Part shown: positions 8,027-43,862 of the stretch, one piece after another
Layout: each line of letters begins with the position of its first letter
Position numbering within the stretch: position 1 is the stretch's first letter
Origin: a virus
DNA: 43,862 nucleotides
Virus record (IMG/VR): IMGVR_UViG_3300044714_000018
Location: 1 to 43,862 of that record
Strand: one strand, 5' to 3'
Made by a program: the position numbers and the translations under genes
The notes under the pieces: generated by a model
Databases searched by the model: none
What the model was told of the DNA's origin: nothing
The model's input: the letters and a program-made list of their open reading frames with translations, nothing else

Positions 8027-8782
8027 TTATGTCCTCGGCGGTTGAGCAAGCGGTGTCGGAAGATTCGGCGACCAACCCGCGCCCTGCGAACGTAAGCGCT
8101 GCTCCTGCGTCATTGCGTTGGCCTTTCGCATGTCATATTGCTGCTGCCAGGACTGTGCCAACTTAGGGTCATCTGCTTGCTGGCCGTAATCGCGGAGATA
8201 GCCTGCAACAGTGATCATGCATGCTGCCAGCAGAAGGTCTGGATAGGTCAGGCTGACGTAAGTCGTCGGATTGGTAGCGCTGATCGGGGCTGGCTGGAAC
8301 AGCCCCGTAATTTCTGCAGCGTAGGTGCTGTCGGGTGTCGGCGCCACGACCATCGTCTGGTTGTCGCGCATCGCCCAGTAGCGCCCCATCGAGTCAGCAT
8401 AGTTCGATGTCGGGTTGACGGTCACACTTTCTTGCTGCCAAATCGAATCGATTGTGTCGAGTGATGCCGCGTCGAACTGGATGCGAGTGCCAGCACTAGG
8501 CGTCGCGCCGGCCGGATAGATGAGGGACAACCCCTCTGGGACGATGATGATAACTGAGGCCGCGCTTAAGTTCAGGGATCGCGTTGCGCCGGTGAATGTA
8601 AGACTCGCATCTTGCGCGCGCGTCGCTAGCAGGACGAGATCGCGGTAGATGAGGCATTCTCCACCCTCGACGAATCGCGGCATCATGGTCTGGAAGTCGA
8701 TCGGAAGCGTCGAAAACACGTAAGGAGACGGCGCCTGCACCGCCAGGATCGTCAAGGCATTGGTAAGGTCCGTGTAATCCAC
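8027..8782 (-). CDS. Head-tail adaptor-like structural protein
   Basis: 251 residues starting MDYTDLTNALTILAVQ. The pattern (N-terminal helix, MMPRFVEGGECLIYRDLVLL, beta strands with SVTVNPTSNYADSMGRYWAMRD, then helices in PDLLLAACMITVAGYLRDYGQ and a basic Gln-rich C-terminus) resembles phage adaptor/connector proteins of the gp6 or tail-tubular kind. The gene sits between two fibre-like genes, with a 5-base gap to the next. No catalytic motif is seen. The role is inferred from pattern and neighbours. Confidence 0.5.
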   Translation of the reverse strand: MDYTDLTNALTILAVQAPSPYVFSTLPIDFQTMMPRFVEGGECLIYRDLVLLATRAQDASLTFTGATRSLNLSAASVIIIVPEGLSLIYPAGATPSAGTRIQFDAASLDTIDSIWQQESVTVNPTSNYADSMGRYWAMRDNQTMVVAPTPDSTYAAEITGLFQPAPISATNPTTYVSLTYPDLLLAACMITVAGYLRDYGQQADDPKLAQSWQQQYDMRKANAMTQEQRLRSQGAGWSPNLPTPLAQPPRT

Positions 8783-10667: not shown

Positions 10668-11408
10668 CTACATCCTAAAATAGCCCGATACATCGGGCAT
10701 GATCTCGATTGGCGCGGTCTCCTGATCGTTCGTCACTGCGAGGTCCCAGGACTCCTTGGCTTCGACCTTCGCGGCTTCGTACATCGCGGGCGCGAACTTG
10801 CGCGCCAGGCGCTTCGCCATCTCGTCGGCGAGCGCGTCGAGAAAGCGGTACGGGACGTCGGCGATCTGCCCGACCGCCGCCGTCGCGTCCTGAATGCGCG
10901 ACAGGAAGTAGTAGTTGACCTCGTTGACGGGATAGCTGGCCTGCGGCACCTGATAGAAGGTGATCTGCGGCACGCTTTCCAATCGCTGGAACCAGAACTG
11001 TGAGGGATAGCCCTGCACGGCCTTGTTCGGCAGCGCCGCGTACTGAGATCGCGACAGGCTGATCAGGATGCGATCGGTGTTTATGCCCGAGCCGCCGCCG
11101 TTGATCGTCGTGAAATAGACGTCCAGCATGCTGACGATGTTCGGCGAGATGTTCGAGACCCCGGTGCCCGCCGTATACGTCGCCTGCCCGGCAACAAGCT
11201 GGATGGTTCCGAGCTGGACTTCCCACAGGTTGACGCCGCAGTTGCCGAAGCCCTGCAGGGCGAAGTTCATCGAGCGCCGGAACGACGCCCAGTGATGGCG
11301 GGTCAGCGCGGTCGGCCGGATGCCGATGCGGTCGAACGCCTCGACGCCGATTTCCGCCGTCGCAGGATTCCAGTTGTAGGTGCCGCTTGTGGTGTTCGGC
11401 GTCGCCAT
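10668..11408 (-). CDS. Head-tail connector protein, P22 gp4-like
   Basis: 246 residues. The order of elements fits podoviral connector / head-completion proteins: helical N-terminus (AEIGVEAFDRIGIRP), the LVAGQATYTAGTGV strand, ILISLSRSQYAALPNKAVQGYPSQFWFQ, ITFYQVPQ, and the helical DVPYRFLDALADEMAKRLARKFAP. In this family the protein docks under the portal after packaging. Its place between capsid and tail genes agrees. The family call is from pattern memory and was not searched. Confidence 0.6.
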   Translation of the reverse strand: MATPNTTSGTYNWNPATAEIGVEAFDRIGIRPTALTRHHWASFRRSMNFALQGFGNCGVNLWEVQLGTIQLVAGQATYTAGTGVSNISPNIVSMLDVYFTTINGGGSGINTDRILISLSRSQYAALPNKAVQGYPSQFWFQRLESVPQITFYQVPQASYPVNEVNYYFLSRIQDATAAVGQIADVPYRFLDALADEMAKRLARKFAPAMYEAAKVEAKESWDLAVTNDQETAPIEIMPDVSGYFRM

Positions 11409-11426: not shown

Positions 11427-11669
11427 TCAGTCTTTGCCGATGCCGGGATACTTCCGGTGGACGGCGGCGCGAATGCGGCTCTGCTCGCTCGGCGAGGCGT
11501 TCTGCGCGCCGCGCGCCAGCGCATTGCGCGCCCGGTTCGGCGTGTCGATCGGATAGCGCTCGCCGGGCAAAGCAAAATCCTTGCCCGGCAGCGCGTGCCG
11601 TTCCTCTGCCGTGAGACGTCCGCCGTGGGCCCTGGCTTCGGCACCGCCGGACCCGCGATCAGTCTCGCT
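11427..11669 (-). CDS. Frame-shifted C-terminal domain of the GG-motif protein (no start codon of its own)
   Basis: 80 codons continue in the +1 frame from the end of the 139-residue gene to TGA at 11427. The peptide holds HGGRLTAEERHALPGKDFALPG, RYPIDTPNRARNALARGAQ and RIRAAVHRKYPGIG, a small domain I recognise from many phage proteins. This frame contains no ATG, GTG or TTG between an in-frame TGA near 11788 and the domain. It can therefore be made only as an extension of the upstream gene, by +1 slippage at GGC-AAA-AAG (A5 at 11669-11673), or because the sequence has one extra A there. Confidence 0.6.
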   Translation of the reverse strand, partial: SETDRGSGGAEARAHGGRLTAEERHALPGKDFALPGERYPIDTPNRARNALARGAQNASPSEQSRIRAAVHRKYPGIGKD

Positions 11670-12078
11670 TTTTGCCCATCGAGGACGCCGGCCCCTCGCC
11701 GTGCGATTCGACCTCGAGCTGGTCCTTCTCGTAGGGCAGGCTCGACATCTTATGGGCCTCGCTGAGCGGCGAGTGCTCGGCGCCCTTCAGCCGGCCGCCG
11801 CGCGCTCGCTTGTCGAGGCGATGCCCGGGATGCTTGCCGTGCACCGCACCGCCGGACTTCTTCTTGACCGGCAGCTTCTCGTGGTCGCGCTTCTTGCCGT
11901 CGTGCTTGTGCGGATGCAGCATCTTCTCGCCCTCGCTCTCTTCCTCGCGCTTGATCGAGGCGCCGGTGTGCTCCTCGGGGCGCTCTTCCATGTCGGCGAT
12001 CCCGCCGCCGCGCGCGCGATGCATGCGGTGCTCGCCCTTGTGGTGCATCCGCTCTTCGTGATCCTTGTGGCCCTTCAT
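11659..12078 (-). CDS. Lys/His/Glu-rich GG-motif protein (N-terminal part of a split reading frame)
   Basis: 139 residues, extremely hydrophilic, with about a third of residues Lys, Arg or His. It contains RARGGGIADM, KKKSGGAVHGK and KRARGGRLKG. The stretch GGAVxGKxPxHRLDK followed by RGGR is nearly repeated in the protein at 24812-25855. No membrane segment or enzymatic motif is seen; it is probably disordered and nucleic-acid or virion associated. The conserved domain expected after a RGGRL motif is present downstream in the +1 frame, so the annotated stop at 11659 may not be the true end. Confidence 0.7.
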   Translation of the reverse strand: MKGHKDHEERMHHKGEHRMHRARGGGIADMEERPEEHTGASIKREEESEGEKMLHPHKHDGKKRDHEKLPVKKKSGGAVHGKHPGHRLDKRARGGRLKGAEHSPLSEAHKMSSLPYEKDQLEVESHGEGPASSMGKKRD

Positions 12079-16204: not shown

Positions 16205-17113
16205 TCAATTGGTTGGAAAAATACCGAACCCAGCGCGCCAGTCGTCCCAACCTAAATAGTATCTTTCGTACCCCTTCACGAGCAGGTTGTCGGTGGTGAA
16301 CTCGACCTGCATCGACGACTCGAACGGCACGCGCTCGAGGTAGATGAAGCCGCCGAGGTCCGACAGCACGAACCAGGCGTAAGGCGAGGTCAGGAAGTCC
16401 ATGACGATGTAGCCGTCGCGGAGATCGTCGTTCTCCTTGACGCTGGCGACGTCGTTGTTGGCGGTGCCCGGGCGAAGCGGGGTCTCCATCAGTCGCTTGG
16501 CGACGTGGCGCAGCTCGACCGGCACGGCCAGCTTCTTGCCTTGCGTGCCGATCAGCAGGCCGGCGTTGTCGCGGAAGCGCCGAATCTGGTTGTTGGCGAG
16601 CAGCAGGGTGTTTTCGTTCAGGCCGATCTGGACGGTCGGCGTGTTCGGCACCGTGTAGCCCTCGACCGGGTGCAGGGTCGAGAACAGCGGCAGGTTGTCG
16701 CCGCCGATCTGCGGGTTGAGCACGTTGCCGGTGTTGAAGTTCGCCGCCGCCAGGATTTCCTTCATCTGGCGGAAGCTGCGGATCAGCCCGAGGTTGGTCG
16801 GGTCGAACTGCGTCTTGTAGAGGTTGTCGTCGATGGCCTCTCGGGTGAAGGCATAGCCCAAGCCGATCGCGACGTGCACGTGGTTGTAGGTGAAGCGCTG
16901 GCCGGCGAGGTTGTCGAACTGCGTCGGCGCGCCCGACTGCTTGAGCTGCGGCAGCGGCAGGTAGCGCATCGATTCGGTGCGCTCGACCGCCATGTCGGAC
17001 TTGCCGACCGCGTAGATGTGCGGCCATTGCTGCGGGATCTGCTTGTAGTCGCCCTTGATCTTGCGGACGCCCGGCAGCAGCAGCGCGGGGATGTTTGAGG
17101 TGCCGATGGCCAT
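16205..17113 (-). CDS. Major capsid protein candidate
   Basis: 302 residues, ATG with a strong GGGGAG site 7 bases upstream. The sequence has the alpha/beta character of HK97-fold capsid subunits of this size: FNTGNVLNPQIGGDNLPLFSTLHP, LRDGYIVMDFLTSPYAWFVLSDLGGFIYLER, then VEFTTDNLLVKGYERYYLGWDDWR near the C-terminus, matching the final strands of gpT/HK97-type capsids. It follows a decoration-type gene and is downstream of the scaffold candidate. The call is from position, length and pattern. Confidence 0.65.
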   Translation of the reverse strand: MAIGTSNIPALLLPGVRKIKGDYKQIPQQWPHIYAVGKSDMAVERTESMRYLPLPQLKQSGAPTQFDNLAGQRFTYNHVHVAIGLGYAFTREAIDDNLYKTQFDPTNLGLIRSFRQMKEILAAANFNTGNVLNPQIGGDNLPLFSTLHPVEGYTVPNTPTVQIGLNENTLLLANNQIRRFRDNAGLLIGTQGKKLAVPVELRHVAKRLMETPLRPGTANNDVASVKENDDLRDGYIVMDFLTSPYAWFVLSDLGGFIYLERVPFESSMQVEFTTDNLLVKGYERYYLGWDDWRAGFGIFPTN

Positions 17114-19489: not shown

Positions 19490-20098
19490 CTACTCGTCGC
19501 CACGCTGCTTGGCGACCCCGACGTGCCCGGTGATCTCCATGGTCTCGAGCCGGGGCGTTCCGATCTTGCCGCCAGCGCTCGCCACCGCGCCGCGCAGCTT
19601 GTCGGCGAGCTGCTCGTCGGCGATCTGACGATCCTCGCGGCGCGCCGCCTGGGTCAAGTGCATGGGCCGCGTCATCAGGATCTGGCCGTAGCGCTCGATC
19701 GTCTTCTTGTCCCAGCCCGGCGGCACGAGGTCCGGCATCTCGGACGCCGCGACCGGGCGCCAGCCCTGGCCGTAGATCTTCGCCATGTCGGCGCCGTCGA
19801 CCGGCTGGCCCATGACGGTCAGGGACTTCCACTCGTAGTCCCAGCCGGGCTTCTTGCAGTCCTCGGGCACGTCGAAGTCGTCGGAGCCGCGGTTGACCCG
19901 GGAGCGCCGCGTCAGCCGGTCGGGCGCATCGTCGCCGCCGATCGGCACCGTGGCCGGCGCAGCGCTGGTCGCAACCCGACGCTGGCCGCGGTCCTCGGTC
20001 GGATCGCCGCCAGCACCGTCGGCGGCGATCGTAGCGCCCTTGCGGACGTAGCGCCGGCGCGGCCGGCCGGTCGGCGTGGTGGTCGCGGTGTCCGTCAT
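19490..20098 (-). CDS. Structural-region protein, unknown
   Basis: 202 residues with an Arg-rich N-terminus (TGRPRRRYVRKGATIAADG), then a compact part: VPEDCKKPGWDYEWKSLTVMGQPVDGADMAKIYGQGWRPV, ending in ERYGQILMTRPMHLTQAARREDRQIADEQL. The W-rich middle resembles small capsid-associated proteins encoded next to phage scaffolds. The first six residues (MTDTAT) are the same as in the preceding scaffold candidate. The ATG overlaps that gene's stop by 4 bases. Confidence 0.6.
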   Translation of the reverse strand: MTDTATTTPTGRPRRRYVRKGATIAADGAGGDPTEDRGQRRVATSAAPATVPIGGDDAPDRLTRRSRVNRGSDDFDVPEDCKKPGWDYEWKSLTVMGQPVDGADMAKIYGQGWRPVAASEMPDLVPPGWDKKTIERYGQILMTRPMHLTQAARREDRQIADEQLADKLRGAVASAGGKIGTPRLETMEITGHVGVAKQRGDE

Positions 20099-21183
20099 TC
20101 GTAGACCCCTTCATGGTCGAATCGGATACCCTGCTGGGCGATCTCGATCTGGCTCAGCGTGTACTCGGGCAGGCTCATGTTGCAGGCGCTCGCGCCCTTC
20201 TCGAACTCGGCGCGCACCATCGGGTCGCGGAACGCGATCTGCAGCGGCTTGCCGTCGGCGCCGACTTGCGTGACCTCGACCGGTCCCAGATTGGTCCGCA
20301 CGGTGCCGACGCGGCCGGCGCCGACATTGCCGCTGCGGCCGCCCGGATCGTCGCGGTCGCCGCGCGGCGCCGCCGTGCTGGTGCGCGACTGGCGCGGCTG
20401 GCGGGTGAGGTTGGTGTCGGTGGTCACGGTCGCCTCCCGGCGCGTGCCATCGTGGCCATGGTCGGCGCCATAGAGTTTCTCCATTCGCGCGTTGAGGAAG
20501 TCGAAATAGGCCGGCGTGTTCGCCTGGATGCCCTTGTCGAGCGCCAGCTGGTGCGCGGCCAGCGCGTCGGCCTTGTAGTCGTCGTCGGTGTTGAACTGCG
20601 GGTGCGCGTCGATCCAGCGCTGCGCCTCGGGCGCATAGCGCTGCTGGGCGCCCGGCTCCTGCGTCGTGCTCGCTCGGCTGTTGGGATCGGCCGCGAGCTG
20701 CGGCTTGACCACAGTCTCGAAATGCGTCTTCGCGGCATTCGCCTGCTTGAGCTCGGCCACGGCCTCGGCCAGCTTTTCCTGCGCCGCCATCTGCGCGTCG
20801 AGGTCGCCCTTCTCCGTCGCGGCGCGCAGCTCGGCGATCGCGGAATTCTTCTCGGCGGTCGATGCCGCAATGTGGTTGATGATCGCCTGCTCGCGGTCGC
20901 CGACCTGCGTCGTGACGGCAGCCGCGGCCGTGCGCTCGGCCTTCTCGGCGCGCGCGGTCGCATCCGCTGCCTCACGCCGGGCCGCATCGACCTTCGCCTG
21001 GGCGCTGTCCTCGGCCTTCTTGCGCGCGTCCTCGACGGCGGCCTTCAACGGGTCGACGGCATCCGTGCCGGTGTCGCCGTCGCCATCGATGATGATGGTC
21101 TTCGGCGCGTCCTCGACGCCCGGCCGCTTGGTGTCGCGCGGCTGGCGGGTTGCGGGCTCGACGATCGTGGCGGTGTCGGTCAT
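20095..21183 (-). CDS. Scaffolding protein candidate
   Basis: 362 residues from the ATG at 21183, which overlaps the preceding stop. Residues 45-160 are a long charged coiled coil (AVEDARKKAEDSAQAKVDAARREA..., AEKNSAIAELRAATEKGDLDAQ). Then comes a small helical region (APEAQRWIDAHPQFNTDDDYKADALAAHQLAL), a Gly/Arg-rich linker, and a C-terminal segment (VRAEFEKGASACNMSLPEYTLSQIEIAQQG). Location between portal and capsid, acidic coiled coil and length all fit a head scaffold; no protease signature is seen. Confidence 0.55.
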   Translation of the reverse strand: MTDTATIVEPATRQPRDTKRPGVEDAPKTIIIDGDGDTGTDAVDPLKAAVEDARKKAEDSAQAKVDAARREAADATARAEKAERTAAAAVTTQVGDREQAIINHIAASTAEKNSAIAELRAATEKGDLDAQMAAQEKLAEAVAELKQANAAKTHFETVVKPQLAADPNSRASTTQEPGAQQRYAPEAQRWIDAHPQFNTDDDYKADALAAHQLALDKGIQANTPAYFDFLNARMEKLYGADHGHDGTRREATVTTDTNLTRQPRQSRTSTAAPRGDRDDPGGRSGNVGAGRVGTVRTNLGPVEVTQVGADGKPLQIAFRDPMVRAEFEKGASACNMSLPEYTLSQIEIAQQGIRFDHEGVYE

Positions 21184-21356
21184 GATCTCTCCCGGTAGCA
21201 GAGAAGGCGGCGATGCAGATGCTTGTCGCCCCAGAGATTGAACAGCGCGACGAAGCGCCCAACGCGCACGCCGCCCAGCAGCATCTTGCTGGCAACGTGA
21301 TGGCCTGGGCGCCAGCCGATGTGGAAGTAAAGGCCCGGGAGGTTGAGCACGATCAC
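21180..21356 (-). CDS. 58-residue conserved-looking small protein, unknown
   Basis: GTG start overlapping the previous stop (GTGA), and its own stop overlaps the scaffold start (ATGA). The sequence MIVLNLPGLYFHIGWRPG...VGRFVALFNLWGDKHLHRR is His-, Trp- and Leu-rich. It is not membrane-like overall. Double coupling and codon use support a real gene; function unknown. Confidence 0.6.
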   Translation of the reverse strand: MIVLNLPGLYFHIGWRPGHHVASKMLLGGVRVGRFVALFNLWGDKHLHRRLLCYRERS

Positions 21357-21580
21357 GGCTGCACCAGCGGCAGTGCGGCATCGAGCACGGCACGGTAGGT
21401 TCGCTGAATGATGCAGCGCTGCAACCCGTTGCCTTCAAGTTGCGAGCGGTAGACGCGGGCGGCGTTCAGCAGTTCGGGATCGGCGGACAGCACGGCAGCG
21501 ATCTCGGCGTCGGTCAGCTTCGGCGCCAGGCCGACGCGGGCGTTGTAGCCTTGAGAGAGAAGGGCGGTGAGGACGGTCAC
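21353..21580 (-). CDS. Small helical protein, unknown
   Basis: 75 residues, GTG start. Helical composition (KLTDAEIAAVLSADPELLNAARVYRSQLE, IIQRTYRAVLDAALPLV). It lies 3 bases from the GroES-like gene and overlaps the following gene by 4. No family recognised. Confidence 0.6.
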   Translation of the reverse strand: MTVLTALLSQGYNARVGLAPKLTDAEIAAVLSADPELLNAARVYRSQLEGNGLQRCIIQRTYRAVLDAALPLVQP

Positions 21581-21583
21581 GCG

Positions 21584-22051
21584 TCACACTACCGAATGGG
21601 GTAGCTTAACTCGCCCGTAGATGTAGCGCGATTCGATGATCCGGCACGGCCAGCCTTCCCAGCCGCGGCCGTCCTTGTCCTTGCGGTCGGTTGCCTTCGC
21701 GCCTTCGCCCTGGACCGAGCAATTCCAGGCATCGTAGATCTTGCCGTAGACCCAGTCGCCGATAACCGGCAAGCGGCCGTTGAAATCAGCGACCTCGCTT
21801 TCACGGAATGCATCGGGGCCGATCTTCAGCACCATGCTGATCGGGCCCTGATAAATATCCTCGCGCTGCGTGTCGCTCAGCGTGATGATGCTGCCGGCGT
21901 AGACTGGCCGCACGTAGACCGCGAGCAGCACGCGATCGTGAAACACCTCGACGCCGTCGATATCGCCGACGGCATCCCAGATCTCTTTCTGGGCGGCGGC
22001 CAGATCCGTATGTTTCCAGCCATGAAGGACGCGAGCGCTTGCAACGGGCAT
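21584..22051 (-). CDS. GroES/Cpn10-like fold protein
   Basis: 155 residues. The order of elements follows co-chaperonin 10: an N-terminal strand HDRVLLAVYVRP, a GGIxLP-like segment (AGSIITLSDTQREDIYQG), a strand plus turn MVLKIGPDAF, then VIGDWVYGKIYDAW, equivalent to the GDxVxxxxYxG strand of GroES. An extra C-terminal part (WPCRIIESRYIYGRV) extends it beyond the usual ~97 residues. Phage GroES-like proteins help fold capsid subunits, and its position between portal and scaffold is compatible. The mobile loop is not obvious, so it may be a fold-only relative. Confidence 0.5.
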   Translation of the reverse strand: MPVASARVLHGWKHTDLAAAQKEIWDAVGDIDGVEVFHDRVLLAVYVRPVYAGSIITLSDTQREDIYQGPISMVLKIGPDAFRESEVADFNGRLPVIGDWVYGKIYDAWNCSVQGEGAKATDRKDKDGRGWEGWPCRIIESRYIYGRVKLPHSVV

Positions 22052-22259: not shown

Positions 22260-22624
22260 GACTGGTTCGCCGGGTCCTGCTGCTGGGCCTGCTCCGAGCC
22301 GGGCTGCGCTTGCGTCTGGATCGGCGGGTTTTCCAGCTTCTCGATTCGCGCGCAGATGGCGTGGATCGCGCTCTGCAGATCGCTCTCGGCGGTCTCTAAC
22401 CGCTCGGTCAGTTCCGCGATCTTCGCCAGCAAGGGCGCGGGATCGAACGGCGCGCCGGGCTCGGCTGCCGGCTGTGCTGCGAACTGCGCCTCATGGGCTT
22501 CCACCGCCATTTGCGCGGCCTCCGCGGCATCGGCTGCCGCCGGATGCTGCACGCTGCTGTTCACGCCGTCGTGGCAATCCACGATCCAGCCCTTCTCGGC
22601 GTCGCCGTCTACGGTCACTCTCAT
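22256..22624 (-). CDS. Small coiled-coil protein, unknown
   Basis: 122 residues. A short beta N-terminus (MRVTVDGDAEKGWIVDCHDG), an Ala/Glu-rich linker, and a coiled coil (LLAKIAELTERLETAESDLQSAIHAICARIEKLE, about residues 65-98), then a Gln/Pro tail. Coupled to both neighbours by 4-base overlaps. Possibly a structural accessory; function unknown. Confidence 0.6.
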   Translation of the reverse strand: MRVTVDGDAEKGWIVDCHDGVNSSVQHPAAADAAEAAQMAVEAHEAQFAAQPAAEPGAPFDPAPLLAKIAELTERLETAESDLQSAIHAICARIEKLENPPIQTQAQPGSEQAQQQDPANQS

Positions 22625-22845
22625 GTCATCTCCTTTGGCAAAAATCCGTTGAGTTCCGTCAAGCCGCCATCGCGGACTGGCTCGTGCGCCATCGCGTGCA
22701 CCGCCTGAAGCGCGGCAGCGCGCGCCAGTCTATAATCTGACGGCACCTGTACCAATAGGCCGCCCGGATCGCGAATGCGCATCACGGCGGTCGCGACCGC
22801 TAGCGCGAGCTTGTGAAGCGCATCATCGTCTATGCTCAGCATCAC
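22621..22845 (-). CDS. Small protein, unknown
   Basis: 74 residues, GTG start overlapping the previous stop by 4. Helical N-terminus (DDALHKLALAVATAVMRIRDPGG) then VPSDYRLARAAALQAVHAM. No family recognised; its codon use matches the operon. Confidence 0.55.
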   Translation of the reverse strand: MMLSIDDDALHKLALAVATAVMRIRDPGGLLVQVPSDYRLARAAALQAVHAMAHEPVRDGGLTELNGFLPKEMT

Positions 22846-24162: not shown

Positions 24163-24815
24163 CAGAACTTGAACGCTCTCGTGAGTGCCGCCGCGCGTTT
24201 CTCTTCGGCGGTGGGCTCGGGCTTCGGGGTGAGTTCAGCGATGCGCTTCTCAGCTTCGATGAGCTTGCCGATCCATTCCAGCTTTTCGGCGAACAGACGC
24301 TGTGCGTCGGCTGCTTGCTGGTTGCGCTCGGCCGCGAGGCTACTGATCCTCGCCTGCTGCGCGGTCATGTCGAGCGCCATCTGACTGACCTGAGCGCGCA
24401 GCGCGGCGACTTCCTTCCACGCGGTGCGCCAGTCGCGATCGCCCATGCATTCCGTCGGGGCCATCGCGTCATCGATCTCTTCTCGGCGCGCGCCGCAACG
24501 ACCGCAGACTGACGACCAATTGTCCCAGGTATGCAGCGGATAGCGGGATTCGGTATAGGCAGAGCCCGTCAAGCTATATCCGTCCCCATCGACCTTCACC
24601 GCAGGACGAATGGGCGGCCATTCCTTGCCGTCGCGGTCGCGCCAGATCAGGGCGTTGGGATCCTCTTTCCCAGGCTCGACCCTTACGGGCTCGTCGAAGA
24701 TCTTGCTCCAGTCCGAGTCGATCTGCTTCTGCATCTCGGGGCTGAGATGCCAATCCTTTCGCATCACCGCCACGCGCGCCGCGTCGCTGAGCGACTTTGC
24801 AAAATCCTCGCTCAC
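24162..24815 (-). CDS. Coiled-coil protein with a CxxC centre, unknown
   Basis: 217 residues, GTG start coupled to the previous stop. The first half is globular, with YPLHTWDNWSSVCGRCGARREEIDDAMAPTEC carrying a CGRC knuckle and a third Cys, a possible zinc site. The second half (about residues 130-200) is a coiled coil rich in Ala, Glu and Gln. No family recognised. Confidence 0.6.
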   Translation of the reverse strand: MSEDFAKSLSDAARVAVMRKDWHLSPEMQKQIDSDWSKIFDEPVRVEPGKEDPNALIWRDRDGKEWPPIRPAVKVDGDGYSLTGSAYTESRYPLHTWDNWSSVCGRCGARREEIDDAMAPTECMGDRDWRTAWKEVAALRAQVSQMALDMTAQQARISSLAAERNQQAADAQRLFAEKLEWIGKLIEAEKRIAELTPKPEPTAEEKRAAALTRAFKF

Positions 24816-25855
24816 GGCTTCGTGACGTCCTTCGTGCGCGCGAGATCGCGCTGGTGCCCGCGGAAATGCGCGGTGTTCAAGCCGCGCCGGCTGTGTGCGG
24901 CCTCATGCAACCGGCCGCCGTCGGCATACGCCCTCTCCTTCTCGGCGCGGCCTGCGCCGCCACCACCCCCGGCGTCGGGATGCGGATAGGGCGGTGCATC
25001 GAGGCGACCGCCGTCCTTGCGGGGCGGCATCATGGGCGGCGGACCACCGGCCCCAGGCCCAGCGGCAGCCATGCCGGGCCCGGGACCGGCAGCGCCCGGA
25101 GGCGGCATCGGCGCCGGCGCGGGGGGTTGACCAGCGCCCGGCGCCATCCGTGCGGCGGCGGCGCGCGCGCCCATCTGCATGCCGGCCTGCATGCCCTTCT
25201 GGGCGGCCAACTGCTTCTCGGCGTCGGTGTTGCCCTGCGTGATGACGTTGACGACCACCCGGCCCTTGCCGACGCGGCCGCCATCAGCCCGGCGAGCTCG
25301 GCCGCCATTCCTGCGCGCCTCGTCGTCGCCGGTCTGCGGGGCTGGCGTTGCGGCGCCGTCGGACGGATAGGCCATCTGGCCACCATCCTTGCGATTGATG
25401 CGACCGCCGGACTTCTTGCTCTGGTCGCTGCTGCTCGACGCCGGCTGCGCTTGGCTGCTGCTGGTGCTCGGCGACATCCAGTCACTCACCTTGTCGGCAA
25501 CGGCGCCGACAGCGCTTTTCGCAGCGTTGATGACCTTGGGGCCGTACTTCCGGGTTGCCTGCACCAGCGGATCACTGTTCTGATCCCAGCCGATCGCGTT
25601 GCCGTCCGCGTGGTGCTCGCGGCCGCCACGCGGCTTCTTGTCGAGCCGGTGCTTGGGCGCCTTCCCCTGCACCGCGCCGCCGTGGCGCAGCTTCAGCTTG
25701 GTGCGCTTGCCGCCGTGCAGATGGTCCTCGTGCTCGTGCACGCCCTTGGCGACCATCTTGGCGTCCTGCGCCTTGTCGCCGCCGTGCCCCGAGCGCTTCA
25801 TATGGTGCTCGGCTTCCTTCTGCCGGCCCGCGCGGACGCGAGAGTGGATGCTCAT
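24812..25855 (-). CDS. Large Lys/His/Pro-rich GG-motif protein
   Basis: 347 residues from the ATG at 25855, coupled to the previous stop. The N-terminal ~90 residues are His/Lys-rich (KEAEHHMKRSGHGGDKAQDAK, EHEDHLHGGKRTKLKL). GG motifs recur: HGGAVQGK, KPRGGREH, KKSGGRINRKDGGQMAYP, RRNGGRARRADGGRV, PRKDGGRLD, YADGGRLHE. The segment GGAVxGKxPxHRLDK...RGGR is shared with the protein at 11659-12078. The C-terminal half has a short helix (TDAEKQLAAQKGMQAGMQMG) and a Pro/Gly-rich tail. Probably disordered; the function may be nucleic-acid packing or virion assembly (inference). Confidence 0.65.
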   Translation of the reverse strand: MSIHSRVRAGRQKEAEHHMKRSGHGGDKAQDAKMVAKGVHEHEDHLHGGKRTKLKLRHGGAVQGKAPKHRLDKKPRGGREHHADGNAIGWDQNSDPLVQATRKYGPKVINAAKSAVGAVADKVSDWMSPSTSSSQAQPASSSSDQSKKSGGRINRKDGGQMAYPSDGAATPAPQTGDDEARRNGGRARRADGGRVGKGRVVVNVITQGNTDAEKQLAAQKGMQAGMQMGARAAAARMAPGAGQPPAPAPMPPPGAAGPGPGMAAAGPGAGGPPPMMPPRKDGGRLDAPPYPHPDAGGGGGAGRAEKERAYADGGRLHEAAHSRRGLNTAHFRGHQRDLARTKDVTKP

Positions 25856-25962
25856 GACTGCACCGCCAGCCAGGCGCGCGCCCAGGCGAAGAAGTCCTTC
25901 AAGCTGCGACGAAGCGATCGGCATGACGCCTTTGGCCAGTTCGGATGGTCTGTCTGGATCAT
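25852..25962 (-). CDS. 36-residue small basic protein
   Basis: MIQTDHPNWPKASCRSLRRSLKDFFAWARAWLAVQS. An AGGAG ribosome site 7 bases before the ATG supports it, and its stop overlaps the next start (ATGA). The C-terminal half would be a basic amphipathic helix. Unknown function. Confidence 0.5.
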   Translation of the reverse strand: MIQTDHPNWPKASCRSLRRSLKDFFAWARAWLAVQS

Positions 25963-25996: not shown

Positions 25997-26317
25997 TCAG
26001 TCGATTGCGTTGGGCGCCGCGCCCGCAGCGTGGGTGCCGACGTAGGGGTCTCCGACCGGCATGGGACCGCTGTCGTCCTCGGGCGCCGGCACGACGGGGC
26101 CGCCTTCGCTGCGGTAGGCGTGCTTGCCCTTGATGTTGCGGTGCAGGTAGCCGCCGACACTCTCGGACGCCAGCGCGGCCGGCAGATGCTCGGGGCCGAC
26201 GCCGTGGTAGATCGTGCGGCCGCCGCGCAGGTAGGTGACGTGCAGTTCTTCGCTGTCGGGGTCGTAGCCGATCTCCTTGATGTTGGACGACCGGACGCGG
26301 CGCATTTCGATGGTCAT
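25997..26317 (-). CDS. KTSC-domain protein
   Basis: 106 residues, ATG coupled to the previous stop. Residues 5-70 match the KTSC fold: VRSSNIKEIGYDPDSEELHVTYLRGGRTIYHGVGPEHLPAALASESVGGYLHRNIKGKHAY (motif given in overview; key residues Ser-Ser, Tyr18, Gly33, Tyr-His, Gly55-Tyr). In bacteria this small domain is often next to lysyl-tRNA synthetase or in phages; its function is not settled. The C-terminus is a Pro/Gly-rich tail with one GG motif (YRSEGGPVVP). Confidence 0.8.
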   Translation of the reverse strand: MTIEMRRVRSSNIKEIGYDPDSEELHVTYLRGGRTIYHGVGPEHLPAALASESVGGYLHRNIKGKHAYRSEGGPVVPAPEDDSGPMPVGDPYVGTHAAGAAPNAID

Positions 26318-26745: not shown

Positions 26746-26933
26746 GCTGCCCCCTTCCCAAACGCCCATTGCGCAAACATGACGCCGATGTTGGCGAGCG
26801 CGACCACCAGCGGCATCAACCCGAAGCTGGTCTCTTCCTTGATCTCACCGAACGCGATGCCGCCGGCGAGCGCGGCGAGCACTAGCAGCGCGATGAAGCC
26901 GAACGCCATGCGGGTTGCGTCGAGCCAGGTCAC
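26742..26933 (-). CDS. Two-pass small membrane protein, holin-like candidate
   Basis: 63 residues, GTG coupled to the portal stop. Two hydrophobic segments (about 9-28 and 37-57) separated by an acidic turn (GEIKEETS), with a short basic/polar N-terminus. Length and topology fit a class II holin, but no endolysin gene is visible nearby, and other small membrane roles are possible. Confidence 0.5.
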   Translation of the reverse strand: MTWLDATRMAFGFIALLVLAALAGGIAFGEIKEETSFGLMPLVVALANIGVMFAQWAFGKGAA

Positions 26934-29257
26934 GCGCCACCACCCTGCGGCCCCTCTGGCGCCGGCGGCACGGCTGCCGCCATCTCATCGAGATGGTGCG
27001 CGTGGTCCTGGTTCAGCTCGGCGCCATGCTGCTGCGCCTCCGCGACAATCCCAGCCGCGTGCTGCGCCGTCCCGTGCGCGGCCTCGATCTTCTTGCCCTC
27101 AAGCGACATCGCGGCGCGCCGCTCCTCCGATTCGCTCTGCGCGGCGCGGTCCGCGCTCTCCATCTTGGTAGTCTCCAGCGCGGTCTGGCCCTTGATGGTG
27201 GCCGTGGTCACGTCGGTCTGCGCTTTGGTTTGCGCGATCTGGACCTGTGCTGCGGCCTTGGCCGCGTTGGGATCGGGTGCGGCCTGCGGCGGTTGCGGCG
27301 GCATCGTGAACTCCTGCGGCTGGTCCACCGCGAGGATGCGCAGGCCCATGTCCCAGACCGAACGCGCGTTCGCGATGCCCGCGAACTGCGGCATGCCGGC
27401 CATCATGATCAGCGCCTCGAGCCGCTTCAGGCGGTGCACCATGCTCGGCGTGTTCGGATCGGCCGCCGGGATCAGGTCCTGGTCCTCGATCTCCTTGGCG
27501 ATCTGCCATTGGCGCGCCGGGCTCTTGTTGAACTTCCACAGCGCCTCGGGCTCTTCGCAGAACAGCTCCTTGAGGAGCTCGAATTCCTCCTGCTGGGCGA
27601 TGTGGTCGTCCTTGTGCACGGCGCCCGGAACCTGCGCGATCGCCTCGATGTAGGACATGATCGTGCCGACCGGGACGTCGCCGACGCGGCCCTCGCCGAC
27701 CGGCAGTTCGATGATGCCCGCGAGCCGGCGCGCGTCCGCCGCAATCATCGCCTTCTCGGCCGCCAGCACATTCGACGGCTCGGCGAACGGGAACGGCATG
27801 ATGACCGCGCGAATGTCCTGGCCGCCGGTGTTGATCGGCTGGAACTGCCCGAGCCCGGCGCGGATCTCGGTCGTCTGCACGCGCGAACCCGGGCCCGACG
27901 AGATCACGCCGCCCGGCATCGACTTCAGCATGCCGCTGTCGATCAGGATGCGCTCGATCGCGGTGCACGCGCGCTGCGGGTTGCCGATCAGGTGGATGAA
28001 GCCGAGGTCGTAGAAGCCCAGTCCGGGGATGAAGCCGTATTTCACGTAGCGCTGGCGGACCTTGTACTCGTCGTCTCCCTCGCGCCAATTGCGGCGGATC
28101 TCGAGAACCTGCCGGCTGTCCTTGTCGATCGAGATGCGGTAGGGCAGCGGGAAGCCGGGCTTGTTGCCGTTCTCGTCTTCGCCGAGCGGCCCGGCCTCGC
28201 TCTCCGTCAGGCACTCGTAAATCAGGTGCCGATGGTCCTCGGTCAGTTGTGGCTGGATGTTGATGCCCTGGTTCTGCGCGACCTTGGTCTCGGTCGGCGT
28301 CGGCTGCTCGGTCGGCGTCACCAGGCTGACATCGCGATAGTGGCCCTGCTTCTGCAGACGCTTGACCGTCGACTGGCGCATGCGGATGCGCTCGGTCACG
28401 CGCGCCGCGTCGGTCAGGTGCGAGGCGTCGGGCGACACGATCAGGTCTTGCGCCTTCACCCAGCGCGACACCGGCCGCCGCGCGATCGGGCACCGGTAGA
28501 CCTTGCGGAACTGCGTGCCGACCAGCGCGCGCGAGAACAGCATCTTGCTGAAGTCGGGATAGTACGGCTTGTCGACGACGGTCAGGTAGTGGTTGAAGTC
28601 CATCTCGAGCGCGTCGGCGAGCTCGCTGCGACTCATGGGCTTGGTGCCGGGGGGTGGGGCCGCATCCAACGGCGGCCCGCCGTTATGCCCGATGCCGACG
28701 GGGGCCGCAAGCGCGGGTGCCGCTTCCGGCGCGCCCGGCGGCTTGTCGTCGCGCACCTTCACCGGCCCGCTGACCGGCAGTAGTTCGGCGCGCGCGTTCG
28801 ACCACGATTTGGCGACGGCCTCCATCAGCAGCGTGTGGTGGACCTTGCTGATCGTGCCGTTGGGGCTGGGCTGCGCGCTGGGCTCCTCGAGCGTCGTGCC
28901 CAGGTAGTCGGCGCCCTTGTTTGCGGTCTCCTCCCACTCGAGGCGCGCGCGCTCGTCGGCTTCGATGCCTTCGAGCAGCCGGCTCGCCAGCGTGGCGAGC
29001 TCGTCGTCGGCCAGGTAGTCGGCCAGGTTCTCGTCGAAATCGCGGGCGGCGTCGCGTGGTTTGCGCTCCGGCGCAGCGCCCGGGAAGTTGATGACCGTCG
29101 AGCCGTCCGGGCCTTCCTGCGTTACCGCGCCCGACTTGGCGTCGACCGTTACGGTGGTGTCGCCCGGCAGACTGACCGGACCATCCCCGGTGGGCGCCGA
29201 CGGCTGGTCGGGCTTCGCGGCGGCGAGCGACAGGTAGGATCGGCCGGGAGGCGCCAC
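26930..29257 (-). CDS. Portal protein
   Basis: 775 residues, GTG start. N-terminal extension of ~75 residues (Gly/Pro-rich), then a helical portal core: DFDENLADYLADDELATLASRLLEGIEADERAR, ADYLGTTLEEP, HHTLLMEAVAKSWSNARAELLP. An insert with GIGHNGGPPLD (residues 188-198) is an alphaproteobacterial phage short motif of unknown role. Core markers: FRKVYRCPIARRPVSRWVKAQDLIVSPDA, IYECLTESEAGPLGED, VLEIRRNWREGDDEYKVRQRYVKYGFIPGLGFYDLGFIHLIGNPQRACTAIERILIDSGMLKSMPG. This matches long podoviral (P22-like) portals. A long charged/Gln-rich helical tail follows. (Only short runs are intended as motifs.). Confidence 0.85.
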   Translation of the reverse strand: MAPPGRSYLSLAAAKPDQPSAPTGDGPVSLPGDTTVTVDAKSGAVTQEGPDGSTVINFPGAAPERKPRDAARDFDENLADYLADDELATLASRLLEGIEADERARLEWEETANKGADYLGTTLEEPSAQPSPNGTISKVHHTLLMEAVAKSWSNARAELLPVSGPVKVRDDKPPGAPEAAPALAAPVGIGHNGGPPLDAAPPPGTKPMSRSELADALEMDFNHYLTVVDKPYYPDFSKMLFSRALVGTQFRKVYRCPIARRPVSRWVKAQDLIVSPDASHLTDAARVTERIRMRQSTVKRLQKQGHYRDVSLVTPTEQPTPTETKVAQNQGINIQPQLTEDHRHLIYECLTESEAGPLGEDENGNKPGFPLPYRISIDKDSRQVLEIRRNWREGDDEYKVRQRYVKYGFIPGLGFYDLGFIHLIGNPQRACTAIERILIDSGMLKSMPGGVISSGPGSRVQTTEIRAGLGQFQPINTGGQDIRAVIMPFPFAEPSNVLAAEKAMIAADARRLAGIIELPVGEGRVGDVPVGTIMSYIEAIAQVPGAVHKDDHIAQQEEFELLKELFCEEPEALWKFNKSPARQWQIAKEIEDQDLIPAADPNTPSMVHRLKRLEALIMMAGMPQFAGIANARSVWDMGLRILAVDQPQEFTMPPQPPQAAPDPNAAKAAAQVQIAQTKAQTDVTTATIKGQTALETTKMESADRAAQSESEERRAAMSLEGKKIEAAHGTAQHAAGIVAEAQQHGAELNQDHAHHLDEMAAAVPPAPEGPQGGGA

Positions 29258-30086: not shown

Positions 30087-31055
30087 TTATACCTCACCCT
30101 CACCGGGAATGCCAGCACAAGCGACTTCCTTGACGGCAATCCTGACGTGCTCATCGACGCGCGACAGGAACAACCGCAGCCCGTGCTCGGCCACGTACTC
30201 ATCGACCGCCCGCCGCGCGCCGGCGAAGGCGCCGTAGTCGTCCACGATCAGGATGCCGCCGGGCGCCAGTCGTGGGAATAAAGTCTCCATTTCGTGCTTG
30301 GTCGAGCGGTAGAAGTCCGTGTCCAAGCGCAGCAGGGCGATGCGCTCGGGCGCCCAGCCGGGCAGCGTTTCCTCGACGGGGCCCTGCGCGTACTTGAACA
30401 GGTGCCTCGGATAGCCGGTGGCGTTGCAGGCTTCCATGACCTCGGCCAGCGTGCCCTTCATGTCGCCCGGCGCGAGCGGCGAGCCGTCGTAGATCATATC
30501 GTCGGGCTGCGTCGGCGCCGTCATGCCGGCGAAGGTGTCGAACAGCCAGATGCGGCGCGCGTCGACGCCGAGTCGCAGCAGGGTGCGCGCGATCATGACC
30601 TCGGACGCGCCCTTGTAGACGCCGCACTCCACGAAGTCGCCAGGGATGTCGTTGGCGATCACGTGCTCGACCGCGCGCATCAGCGCCACGCCGGCGGCGA
30701 GACCTTGCGCTGCGGCCCGGCTGGCGACGGCATAGATCATCTTCTCGTCGGCTGTAACGTCGTGCTCAGCCTGCGCTGCTGTGGTGCGCGGGAACACGCG
30801 GGCGTCGAGTTCGGCGGCATCGACCAAGGCTCGGCGGTGGTCGCCAATTGCCACCAGTGCGCGGATGCGCTCGACGCGCGCCCAGGAGTTCGCCTTGAGG
30901 CGCTTCGATCGGATGTAGGGAAACACATCCCTGCCGCGCTGGTGGATCGCCGTGATTTCGTTGTGGTCGAGGCTCGCAAAGCCGTGCAGCGCGAGCGCGC
31001 GCCGCAGACGAAAGCGCCCCGACAAATAGAGGTTGTTCAGCGTGATCGCGGTCAT
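30087..31055 (-). CDS. TylF/MycF-family O-methyltransferase
   Basis: 322 residues, ATG overlapping the previous stop. N-terminal ~95 residues are extra. The methyltransferase core has DFVECGVYKGASEVMIA (SAM loop, 141-156), WLFDTFAGMT (170-179), RLDTDFY (243-249) and LIVDDYGAF (269-277). The D-x-D and DD residues are the Mg2+ and catalytic elements typical of macrocin-type sugar O-methyltransferases. It sits next to a glycosyltransferase-like gene, which suggests methylation of a sugar on a host or virion glycan (inference). Confidence 0.85.
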   Translation of the reverse strand: MTAITLNNLYLSGRFRLRRALALHGFASLDHNEITAIHQRGRDVFPYIRSKRLKANSWARVERIRALVAIGDHRRALVDAAELDARVFPRTTAAQAEHDVTADEKMIYAVASRAAAQGLAAGVALMRAVEHVIANDIPGDFVECGVYKGASEVMIARTLLRLGVDARRIWLFDTFAGMTAPTQPDDMIYDGSPLAPGDMKGTLAEVMEACNATGYPRHLFKYAQGPVEETLPGWAPERIALLRLDTDFYRSTKHEMETLFPRLAPGGILIVDDYGAFAGARRAVDEYVAEHGLRLFLSRVDEHVRIAVKEVACAGIPGEGEV

Positions 31056-34263: not shown

Positions 34264-34430
34264 GGCTCGAGCCTTAGCTGAGACCAATCGATCTTGCGCC
34301 AGTCGTGCTCGTAGCTGCAATCCCATCGGCATGACGGCAGCGTGTTCGGATCGCGCAGGTAGTTGTTGGCCGGCAGGCCGCGCGCATGGCCGTCTGTCAG
34401 CACAGCGGCCAAATATCCGTCACACATCAT
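34260..34430 (-). CDS. Small protein, unknown
   Basis: 56 residues starting at ATG-ATG (34430 or 34427), overlapping the terminase stop. Sequence DGHARGLPANNYLRDPNTLPSCRWDCSYEHDWRKIDWSQL is rich in Cys, Trp, His. Stop coupled to the next gene. Unknown. Confidence 0.5.
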   Translation of the reverse strand: MMCDGYLAAVLTDGHARGLPANNYLRDPNTLPSCRWDCSYEHDWRKIDWSQLRLEP

Positions 34431-36162
34431 ACGGCGCCGCCGTCGGCTTCCTATACCTGCGTCGGTCGATCTCATACTCGTCGTGCTCCTCCTTGAGCAG
34501 CGCCACGCCGTTGGTGCGCAACCACTCGGCGGCCTGCGTCACGGTGTCGACTATACCCTTGCGCTTGCCCTTGGGGAACGACGCGCAGCGCTCGATCACA
34601 AGCTGCGCCCAGTCTCGATCGGGCGCCCACATCATGCCGCCGCCCCACATCTCGATGCCCGTGCGCTCCTCCTTGCCGAGATAGCGGCCGCTCCACATCG
34701 TCTGCACGGCTAGGGCCCGGTTCACCTTGTCGCCGACCGGATTGATTTGGATGACCTGCCACTCGCGGCGGTTCATGCGGCGCTGGATCTCCTGGATGAC
34801 GGCGATGCCGTTGGCCTTGCCCTCGACCAGCAGATAGTCGGCCTTGTTGCGCCGGCACATATCGATGGTGCGCGTGACCAGCGCGTCGAACTCGAGATGG
34901 CCTTCCCAGCCGTCGCGCAGCATGATGTTCGGCCTCGCGTTCTCGTCGGCGAAGGTGCCGAACGCCGTGAGTGCCGATTCGTCGTTGGTCTCCTTCTCCG
35001 TGCTCGCGGTGTCGAGGCTGACCACGCTGAGACCATAGGGTGGGAATGTCGGCTGATCCCAGAGACGCCACCATTCCTCCTTGATGATGCCGCCGCCGCG
35101 GGGTGTTGGAGCTTGCTGTAGCTGCCCCGCGGTGGCATAGGGCCCGAGCTCACCCTTGAGCCCGTCAACCGCTTCGCGCGTGAAGCGCTCGGGCCACAGC
35201 AGTGCGCCATCGGCATCGGCCATCGGGCTGCCGGGCTTCACGACCGGATCGCCGTCCTTCGTGTAGCCGATGCCGGGTAAAAGCTCGCCGTCTTCGTCGA
35301 TGCCGCGCGGGTCCTGGAAGATCTCCGCAGGCTCGCCGTCCTCGTCGTAGCGCAGCACGGTGACGCAGTGACGCAGCGGGTCGTACTCCATGGGCAACAT
35401 CAAGTGCACGACTTCACTGCCACCGTGCTCGATGATGTGCCCGCTCAGGTCACCTTGGCCGAGCCGCTGCATGATCGTGACCTCAGCGCTGGTTCGCGGA
35501 TCGGTAACGCGCGACGCCAACGCTTCCTTGTACGTGCGGATCACGCCCTCGCGCACTAGATCGCTTTCGACCTCCTTGACCTTGTGGGGGTCGTCGATGA
35601 TCTTCACGTCGCCGCCACGGCCGAGCGTGGCGCCGTCGAAGCCCGCCGAGATGCGCGAGCCGCCGGCTGTGGTATCGAAGCGCTCCTTGCTGTCCTGATC
35701 GCCGGCGATCTTGACGTGATGGCCCCAGCGCGCCTGATACCAGTTGCTGAGCAGTAGCCGCTTGGCCGTTGTGCTGTTGTCGAGGCTCAACTGGCTCGCG
35801 TAGCTCAGCGTCAGAAACCGAACTTGCGGCCCCGACAGCGGTCCGCGCTTGCGCTGCGCCCATGTCCACGCCGGCCACGCGACCGACACGATCGCCGTCT
35901 TGCCGACGCGGAACGGAACGTTGATCAGAAGCTTGCGGATGTGGCCGTCGGTCACGGCCATAAGGTGGTCGGAGATACAGTCTATGTGCCAATTTCCCAT
36001 CCAGGGCGCGGGATCGAAGGTCGGCCACGCCTCCTTGTAGAACTGGCTGAGATCGCGTTCGCACTCGACGGCGCTGGCCTCGAGATCGAGGCTCCACGGG
36101 TCGAAGGTCTCGAAAAATTCGGCCGCATCGAAGGCCGGAAGGGCGGCTGAGCGGCGCGGCAC
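34420..36162 (-). CDS. terL: Terminase large subunit
   Basis: 580 residues, GTG sharing a base with the preceding TAG. ATPase: Walker A variant NVPFRVGKTA (81-90) after an adenine-binding-type HIDCISDHLMAV; Walker B VKIIDDPH (186-193); FLTLSYASQ nearby. Nuclease: VVSLDTAST (380-388), LLVEGKANG (444-452), and GIVDTVTQA (537-545) supply the three acidic positions of the RNase H-like fold. It packages DNA through the portal. The Walker A is the terminase-type form lacking the first glycine. The small-terminase candidate and an inserted endonuclease lie upstream. Confidence 0.95.
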   Translation of the reverse strand: MPRRSAALPAFDAAEFFETFDPWSLDLEASAVECERDLSQFYKEAWPTFDPAPWMGNWHIDCISDHLMAVTDGHIRKLLINVPFRVGKTAIVSVAWPAWTWAQRKRGPLSGPQVRFLTLSYASQLSLDNSTTAKRLLLSNWYQARWGHHVKIAGDQDSKERFDTTAGGSRISAGFDGATLGRGGDVKIIDDPHKVKEVESDLVREGVIRTYKEALASRVTDPRTSAEVTIMQRLGQGDLSGHIIEHGGSEVVHLMLPMEYDPLRHCVTVLRYDEDGEPAEIFQDPRGIDEDGELLPGIGYTKDGDPVVKPGSPMADADGALLWPERFTREAVDGLKGELGPYATAGQLQQAPTPRGGGIIKEEWWRLWDQPTFPPYGLSVVSLDTASTEKETNDESALTAFGTFADENARPNIMLRDGWEGHLEFDALVTRTIDMCRRNKADYLLVEGKANGIAVIQEIQRRMNRREWQVIQINPVGDKVNRALAVQTMWSGRYLGKEERTGIEMWGGGMMWAPDRDWAQLVIERCASFPKGKRKGIVDTVTQAAEWLRTNGVALLKEEHDEYEIDRRRYRKPTAAPYDV

Positions 36163-43465: not shown

Positions 43466-43862
43466 ATGCAAGTCACGATTAATCGCCTTCCCTGGTCATC
43501 GCTGCCGCCCATTTTGGTCGAGATCGGCGCCGAATTCGAGACCGCATTGCGTAGCATCAAGCTCGGCGTCGCCGTCAAGGTTTTCGTCGGTGTCGAGCGC
43601 GCTGCCGGCCGCGTGCCGAACCTGAGCGGCTCGAACCTGAGCGGCTCGGACCTGAGCGGCTCGGACCTGCGCGACTCGGACCTGAGCGGCTCGGACCTGA
43701 GCGGCTCGAACCTGAGCGGCTCGGACCTGCGCGACTCGAACCTGAGCGGCTCGGACCTGAGCGGCTCGAACCTGCGCGGCTCGGACCTGCGCGACTCGAA
43801 CCTGAGCGGCTCGAACCTGAGCGGCTCGAACCTGCGCGGCTCGGACCTGCGCGACTCGAACC
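43466..43862 (+). CDS. Pentapeptide-repeat protein (partial, runs off right end)
   Basis: 132 residues visible, no stop. AAGGAG lies 7 bases before the ATG. The first 51 residues ([21 protein letters not shown]...) are a non-repeat start. From residue 52, sixteen S(D/N)L(S/R)(G/D) pentapeptides follow without break, a right-handed beta-helix by family knowledge. DLRDS is every fourth unit and NLRGS occupies the position before it in the last two coils. Known relatives (Qnr, MfpA) mimic DNA or bind partners; the role here is unknown. Confidence 0.85.
43619..43862 (+). repeat. 15-base tandem repeats in a 60-base higher-order pattern
   Basis: Sixteen units of 15 bases plus 4 bases. They differ at few positions (gac/aac, agc/cgc, ggc/gac) and the pattern of variants repeats every 60 bases, so four units are the likely unit of duplication. 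Each 60-base block contains one GACTC. The array is cut by the end of the window. Confidence 0.95.

Follow-up and report, generated by a model that had tools for sequence, protein, structure and literature searches.

Packaging signals are described for phage T4 (PMC3012670) and phage P1 (PMC9024508). In T4, the CTS is described as a short conserved segment of diverse internal proteins, which takes them into the scaffolding core. In P1, the N-terminal 30 residues of DarB suffice to carry a reporter into the capsid, and the remaining Dar proteins are left out when Hdf and DarA are missing (PMC12810830). Packaging of ejection proteins is reported to take place in the procapsid (PMC8954989), and the ejection proteins of SU10, gp20-24, are defined by MS in a phage whose virion is solved (PMC9509320). 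For polyvalent proteins, packaging and injection (PMC5512222, PMC9503650) as well as processing by peptidases (PMC5512222) have been proposed.

Here we analysed the 43,862-base virus record IMGVR_UViG_3300044714_000018 at its full length (the window), in which a first-pass annotation had noticed a basic GG motif in several proteins. No GG signal is described in the titles and abstract openings of the open-access literature searched, the word 'glycine' is absent from the main texts of PMC9503650 and PMC5512222, and no virion proteome of a carrier phage was found in the literature searched.

Results

Late genes of the window

The late genes lie on the minus strand in the order terminase, portal, KTSC, GG-A, scaffold candidate, head protein, GG-B, adaptors, gp10-like protein, P3206, GNAT-like protein and ejection protein (Table 1), and all proteins named in the first-pass annotation, GG-A and GG-B included, are encoded on this strand. 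Judged by gene content and order, the layout is that of a P22/SU10-like short-tailed phage, with an SU10-type adaptor, an SU10 portal match under cut-off, a phrog_4287 ejection protein and a P22-like gene order, the likening to P22 being drawn against what we take to be the gene order of that phage. SU10 is the nearest phage by Pfam match that has a solved virion and MS-defined ejection proteins. The labels 'scaffold' and 'gp4a' were given by place and homology, and the scaffold candidate had no PHROG match over 20098-21180. The ejection protein runs off the left end of the record, and its GG segments lie C-terminal of the phrog_4287 domain. The GNAT-like frame itself had no Pfam or NCBIfam match and clusters with a relative that matches the phrog_1249 acetyltransferase. 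In the portal-scaffold candidate interval, the gene at 21584-22051 takes the same place as the annotated GroES-like co-chaperonin of relatives; its protein had no Pfam match.

Table 1 Positions of the late-gene features in the window
Feature	Position	Strand	Description
Ejection protein	1-2402	-	phrog_4287 DNA ejection protein, E=9.3e-15, residues 2-277
GNAT-like acetyltransferase frame	2403-3152	-	between P3206 and ejection protein
P3206	3206-4207	-	N-terminal helical hairpin (phrog_2423 module), GG linker, helical part, two 'GxYVIPAD'-type repeats
gp10-like virion structural protein	4804-6894	-	phrog_3287
SU10-type adaptor	8027-8782	-	57.4 bits, cut-off 27
Adaptor/gp4-like position	10668-11408	-	phrog_12985 (function not assigned in PHROG)
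DUF6582-like frame	11427-11669	-	under Pfam cut-off; phrog_16160; HGGRL segment at its beginning
GG-B	11659-12078	-	139 aa, K/R/H-rich; coat on one side, adaptor genes on the other
Common module in GG-B	11791-11853	-	GGAVHGKHPGHRLDKRARGGR
Major head protein	16205-17113	-	phrog_371
Scaffold candidate	20095-21438	-	named solely by position, portal to coat
GG-A	24812-25924	-	370 aa, basic, predicted mostly disordered, ~10 basic-GG segments; between portal and scaffold
Common module in GG-A	25619-25681	-	GGAVQGKAPKHRLDKKPRGGR
KTSC-domain protein	25997-26317	-	Pfam KTSC at residues 10-65
Portal	26930-29257	-	phrog_1216; SU10_portal under cut-off
Terminase large subunit	34420-36162	-	phrog_38

GG-A and GG-B share a basic GG module

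GG-A had been given the bounds 24812-25855, which need correction, as 25855 marks an internal ATG and the frame extends to the ATG at 25924. Its claimed common module with GG-B was borne out, with 16 of 21 residues identical. Indeed, when GG-B was shuffled 2000 times, the best 21-residue match to residues 71-130 of GG-A never exceeded 10 identities, and the next best window protein reached 7. The modules had also been called alike at the DNA level; 47 of 63 bases are indeed identical, but this adds nothing beyond the protein likeness, because 16 of the 24 identical residues of GG-A and GG-B have the same codon against 13.0 expected from codon usage, so that protein likeness and codon bias predict the DNA likeness. 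With the same-codon count this near expectation, a recent DNA duplication of the window's module was rejected.

GG-A of the window matched no Pfam, PHROG or accepted NCBIfam family and nothing in INPHARED, and exact peptide patterns of GG-A and of GG-B recovered no relative from viral contigs. The GG-A relatives L117 and L120 had MW202675 as their sole match, and a GG-B-like ORF in L002 had no match in INPHARED. A model of GG-A from an alignment of 7 rows has a mean pLDDT of 52.4, with 207 of 370 residues below 50. At its end (11659), GG-B overlaps the DUF6582-like frame in another frame near an A5 run (11640-11700). The DUF6582-like frame has no start codon of its own upstream of the domain and is fused to GG-B in the relatives G003 and G004; read from the sequence, the overlap appears to be a frameshift, either programmed or an assembly error.

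The wider pattern of the first-pass annotation, [KRH]x(1-2)GG[RGAK], was compared with composition-keeping shuffles in 37 window proteins (p uncorrected). It proved strong in GG-A (11 vs 1.57 shuffled, p<0.0005), fair in GG-B (4 vs 0.59, p=0.005) and weak in P3206 (3 vs 0.57, p=0.025) and the frame 11427-11669 (2 vs 0.20, p=0.03), and only GG-A survives correction for 37 tests, the case for GG-B leaning also on the module and the relatives. A lack of enrichment over shuffles, which the annotation had named as speaking against the motif, was thus not seen for GG-A and GG-B but was seen for two other proteins that it had listed: the ejection protein (2 vs 0.72, p=0.16, not significant) and the KTSC protein (count 0). 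The latter was dropped as a member because its GG-R lies inside the KTSC domain. For the ejection protein, GGs of a broader kind number 7 vs 0.68 by a pattern devised post hoc, and a profile trained on GG-A and GG-B scores 1.4 twice, under the threshold of 2; in the window this protein is a weak case.

In a per-record test, GG-A was enriched (p<=0.01) in 10 of 12 records and GG-B (p<=0.05) in 7 of 8, the exception being the window's GG-B. The same test also picked out a 326-aa protein of G004 and 22621-22845 of the window (2 matches) at p<=0.01, and a 102-aa protein of G004, a 177-aa protein of G014 and a terL-labelled frame of G008 at p<=0.05.

GG-A and GG-B keep their gene places in relatives

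Against the records of 15 relatives, window GG-A gave matches in 8 at E<=10, four of them at E<0.001, one of these four (G002) being a GG-B gene. A 7-row GG-A profile matched 14 of 22 further records, including the profile member G014, and 4 of 5 genomes. A first set of 15 records comprised the window, MW202675 and 13 more. All 10 records having the portal-scaffold interval contain there a gene with matches to the motif profile, and in 10 of 12 such a gene sits between coat and gp4; these are mostly the genes on which the motif profile was trained, so position is what counts. The second set comprised stretches picked for a GG-A profile match (10 of the 14 records and 3 of the 4 genomes), leaving aside G014, G033, G034 and G039 as training member, near copies or fragment. 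Here GG-A lies upstream of scaffold in 13 of 13 stretches, 11 of which also show portal on its far side; all 12 stretches that have both coat and gp4 place GG-B between them. GG-B had been missed by the gene caller in G002 and G005, where ORFs exist at L034:2208-2576 and L002:4378-4842. These data show that both gene places are conserved in relatives.

The motif profile matches a restricted set of protein classes

The first-pass annotation had suggested building a motif profile, and such a profile, searched in the window and its relatives, did find matches beyond GG-A and GG-B. Its five positions were trained only on GG-A and GG-B contexts with the tested genome left out, and the threshold score was 2; GG-A and GG-B had been chosen partly by motif, and the training set includes relatives of the left-out genomes. 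Matches numbered 11 vs 2.4 shuffled in the P3206 class (10 of 15 proteins), 20 vs 4.2 in ejection-1 (17 vs 3.9 without its first six residues, where 3 matches lie), 7 vs 1.5 in ejection-2, encoded by the gene that follows ejection-1 past the left end of the window, and 39 vs 19.0 in unlabelled genes, each count being reached by 0 of 300 shuffles. The counts for gp10 (3 vs 0.9), the helicase (1 vs 0.1) and the polyvalent protein of G015 (2 vs 0.5) were reached by 21, 42 and 25 of 300 shuffles, respectively. No match was found in portal (12 proteins), coat (14), scaffold (12), the adaptors (13 and 13), terL (13), P14322 (7), P12121 (13), MTase or the polyvalent protein of G003, and a DarB-like 2795-aa protein of G003 showed no enrichment. 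In the window itself, P3206 and the helicase have one match each at 2 and the ejection protein none. GNAT proteins (6 vs 0.5) were dropped as carriers, since their matches fall in RSAKGGRA, which we take to be the acetyl-CoA loop.

Unlabelled genes with matches cluster near virion genes (25/235 vs 8/280, p=0.0004; 14/223 vs 8/280, p=0.08, once ejection-2, three GG-B and one polyvalent protein are set aside). With plain [KR]xxGG as the pattern, pooled ratios were 2.95 for GG-A, 3.23 for GG-B and 2.32 for P3206, and mild enrichment appeared in terL (15 vs 8.5, ratio 1.76, 5/200 shuffles), gp10 (24 vs 16.5, 1.46, 10/200) and portal (18 vs 12.6, 1.42, 16/200). Neither ejection-1 (55 vs 48.5, 1.13) nor ejection-2 (12 vs 15.5, 0.77) was enriched, indicating that the motif signal in these proteins comes from the flanks and not from abundance. 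In the first 50,000 bases of each of the isolate-type genomes CRP-901, HTVC023P and DSL-LC04, no protein had three or more profile matches at 1.5. By inspection, GG tails were also seen on cyanophage proteins.

GG segments in linkers, tails and around inserted domains

At least 599 viral-contig stretches matched a P3206 pattern and at least 550 encode a P3206 relative; 80 relatives were kept from these stretches and 12 more lie in genome contigs. One relative, L028, sits within a Bradyrhizobium contig. In this family, a 40-residue N-terminal helical module leads through a GG linker to two 'GxYVIPAD'-type repeats connected, as in the window, by a second GG linker. GG occurs within residues 37-62 in 74 of 78 distinct N-modules, and in a 61-row alignment the GGs of both linkers are at least 90% conserved, though the surrounding linkers vary. 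In the model of P3206 (mean pLDDT 73.3), the GG linkers fall in the segments 43-68 and 233-266, with pLDDT <50, and are thus predicted to be disordered. A fold search gave no PDB match (best E 6.1) and only uncharacterised viral models at low E, and a sequence search against PDB returned nothing useful. The repeats, 'GxYVIPADxxxxxGxGN', presumably resemble the C-terminal 'GEFVV' segments of tape measure proteins. In other phages the N-module also occurs on its own, and an N-module of the P3206 kind opens the annotated head maturation protease of Acinetobacter phage RM_A2 (L128:4001-5332). Many relatives have a GNAT-like gene in the interval from P3206 to the ejection protein (92 loci contain this family and 98 the P3206 family), and in Roseobacter phage CRP-901 an annotated GNAT gene adjoins late genes. 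To our eye, the GKxP of the common module and the nearby GNAT gene recall histone tails.

In 7 of the 10 records from which a long next gene was taken, ejection-2 terminates in [RK]xxGGxV, or a similar sequence, followed by a helix-like segment. A profile of this tail gave 55 matches (40 distinct), of which 55 end within three residues of the C-terminus, a count to be read with the GG included in the profile itself. The bodies bearing the tail were split 30/9/1 by blastp, the two largest groups showing weak profile similarity (probability 84.8 over 66 columns).

P3206-type proteins carry additional stretches between their GG segments. One such stretch, in L023, matches the ADP-ribosyltransferase domain ART-PolyVal under the cut-off (23.7 vs 31.2 bits) and is bracketed by GG segments; seven other P3206-type proteins scanned had no Pfam match. 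Encoded between portal and GG-A, the 1764-aa protein of G015 combines ART-PolyVal (72.9 bits) with PcfJ, its domains being separated by GG segments, and so has the two or more effector domains by which polyvalent proteins are recognized. Relatives therefore have GG-bearing proteins that are like polyvalent proteins in their ART-PolyVal and PcfJ domains and in their genes beside virion genes, whereas GG-A, GG-B and P3206 of the window contain no Pfam domain and no known effector.

A and B modules co-vary between genomes

When all A were locally aligned with all B, the own-pair sum in the first set (n=11) was 1016 vs a permutation mean of 768 (p=5e-5), or p=0.0011 when permuted only within two groups of 4 and 7 genomes set by visual inspection of the score table, and in the second set (n=12) it was 903 vs 829 (p=0.029); these statistics ignore the tree. 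Shuffling B largely abolished the effect: own minus other was 24.8 vs 2.4 in set one (maximum 8.4) and 6.8 vs 1.0 in set two (maximum 6.0; 60 shuffles each). The A-B match is thus genome-specific beyond the composition control, and A and B modules match better within than between genomes, with the own B ranking first or second for just 9 of 23 A. Over 11 genomes, the same codon was used at 129 of 243 residues vs 105.1 expected (z=3.1), and DNA copying may therefore explain part of the co-variation.

Discussion

The first-pass annotation had read the GG pattern as a dispersed short linear motif, and this reading gains from its enrichment over shuffles, its conservation in relatives and its place in predicted disordered P3206 linkers. 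Of the roles offered there, virion incorporation best fits the restriction to candidate internal or ejected proteins, the gene neighbourhood and the bracketing of inserts. We tentatively propose, with rather less than even confidence, that the GG segments are linear recognition elements recruiting internal or ejected proteins into the procapsid in a CTS-like manner. The element would be approximately [R/F/Y]-[K]-x-GG-[K/R/x]-[V/A/I] in disordered linkers and tails. We infer that the carriers lie inside the head and are mostly ejected with the DNA; a procapsid partner, which may be the scaffold, the inner coat surface, the portal or GG-A as a many-armed hub, would bind the GG segments and draw the carriers in ahead of DNA packaging. 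GG-A, with its many copies, could be an early hub or filler like DarA/Hdf, and the clients, with one to few copies, could be GG-B, P3206-type proteins, ejection proteins 1 and 2 and effector-carrying proteins.

The proposed signal is similar by description to the T4 CTS in that one short segment is found on otherwise dissimilar, probably internal proteins (P3206, ejection-1 and ejection-2). In contrast to the CTS, it is a GG motif, sits in internal linkers or at the C-terminus and occurs in several copies per protein. Likewise, the P1 Dar hierarchy resembles the proposed scheme of a GG-A hub and its clients, whereas residues 1-30 of DarB, the only P1 protein compared, contain no GG, its one profile match being at residue 1096. 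The likeness to SU10 in layout does not extend to its ejection proteins: gp20-24 had no profile match at 2 or above, and one match, scoring 2.0, was in the nozzle gp17. Since the motif is missing from the SU10 ejection proteins, the DarB signal and the DarB-like protein, it would be no more than a lineage-specific device.

DNA binding and plain linkers are live rivals to recruitment. The segments may be basic linkers that bind or condense DNA, protamine- or RGG-like, with GG-A and GG-B neutralising packaged DNA and no protein reader involved, which we consider possible though unlikely. Indeed, the 24 GG-A and 20 GG-B examined are basic without exception (net charge +19 to +60 and +5 to +21, respectively), and GG-A is predicted to be mostly disordered. 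However, P3206 and the ejection protein contain acidic GG forms (RFDEGGDV, YYDGGDV), besides charge there is a preference for V at +2 and R/F/Y at -3, the A-B match is genome-specific above the composition control, and a GG is located in the conserved C-terminal tail of ejection-2.

Somewhat more doubtful is a reading of the segments as flexible linkers at domain junctions that recombination and duplication have spread among neighbouring late genes and that no receptor reads. Bracketed inserts, the repeats of the GG segment that make up GG-A and the codon sharing above expectation in all 11 genomes together are what such a history would leave; taken singly, the same-codon counts of the window, G001, G003 and G004 (16, 15, 16 and 12 vs 13.0, 13.8, 15.3 and 11.3 expected) are near expectation, the linker GGs of 61 P3206 relatives are conserved while their linkers vary, and shell and motor proteins have no profile match.

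Double-glycine leader peptides carry a single GG near the N-terminus and are cut by a C39 peptidase, in contrast to GG-A with its many GGs along its length. That GG is instead a cleavage site at which the proteins are cut into smaller peptides at maturation, as the first-pass annotation had also considered, agrees with GG segments lying between domains of polyvalent-type proteins and with the processing proposed for polyvalent proteins (PMC5512222), but is very improbable given that GG-A would fall into many short fragments and that Pfam detected no peptidase family in the 23 window proteins scanned.

The recruitment reading can be extended to a GG virion address code, in which a disordered GG-A hub and GG-B share a genome-specific lock-and-key module and any GG-tagged protein is loaded into the head and injected; we regard this wider claim as unlikely, though worth stating for what it would mean. 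If true, the code would cover transglycosylase ejection proteins, ADP-ribosyltransferase effectors and P3206 carriers, and hundreds of uncultured phages would have a packaging system using neither the T4 nor the P1 signal. With a motif that can be read, one could predict from sequence which proteins uncultured phages inject and find new effectors by their tags, and the motif would offer a testable signal for loading foreign proteins into short-tailed heads.

Elsewhere in the window, a TylF-type methyltransferase (142 bits) is encoded at 30087-31055, flanked by the portal and terminase genes, and a tandem repeat array of ~300 bases with 15-base spacing occupies the right end (43550-43849).
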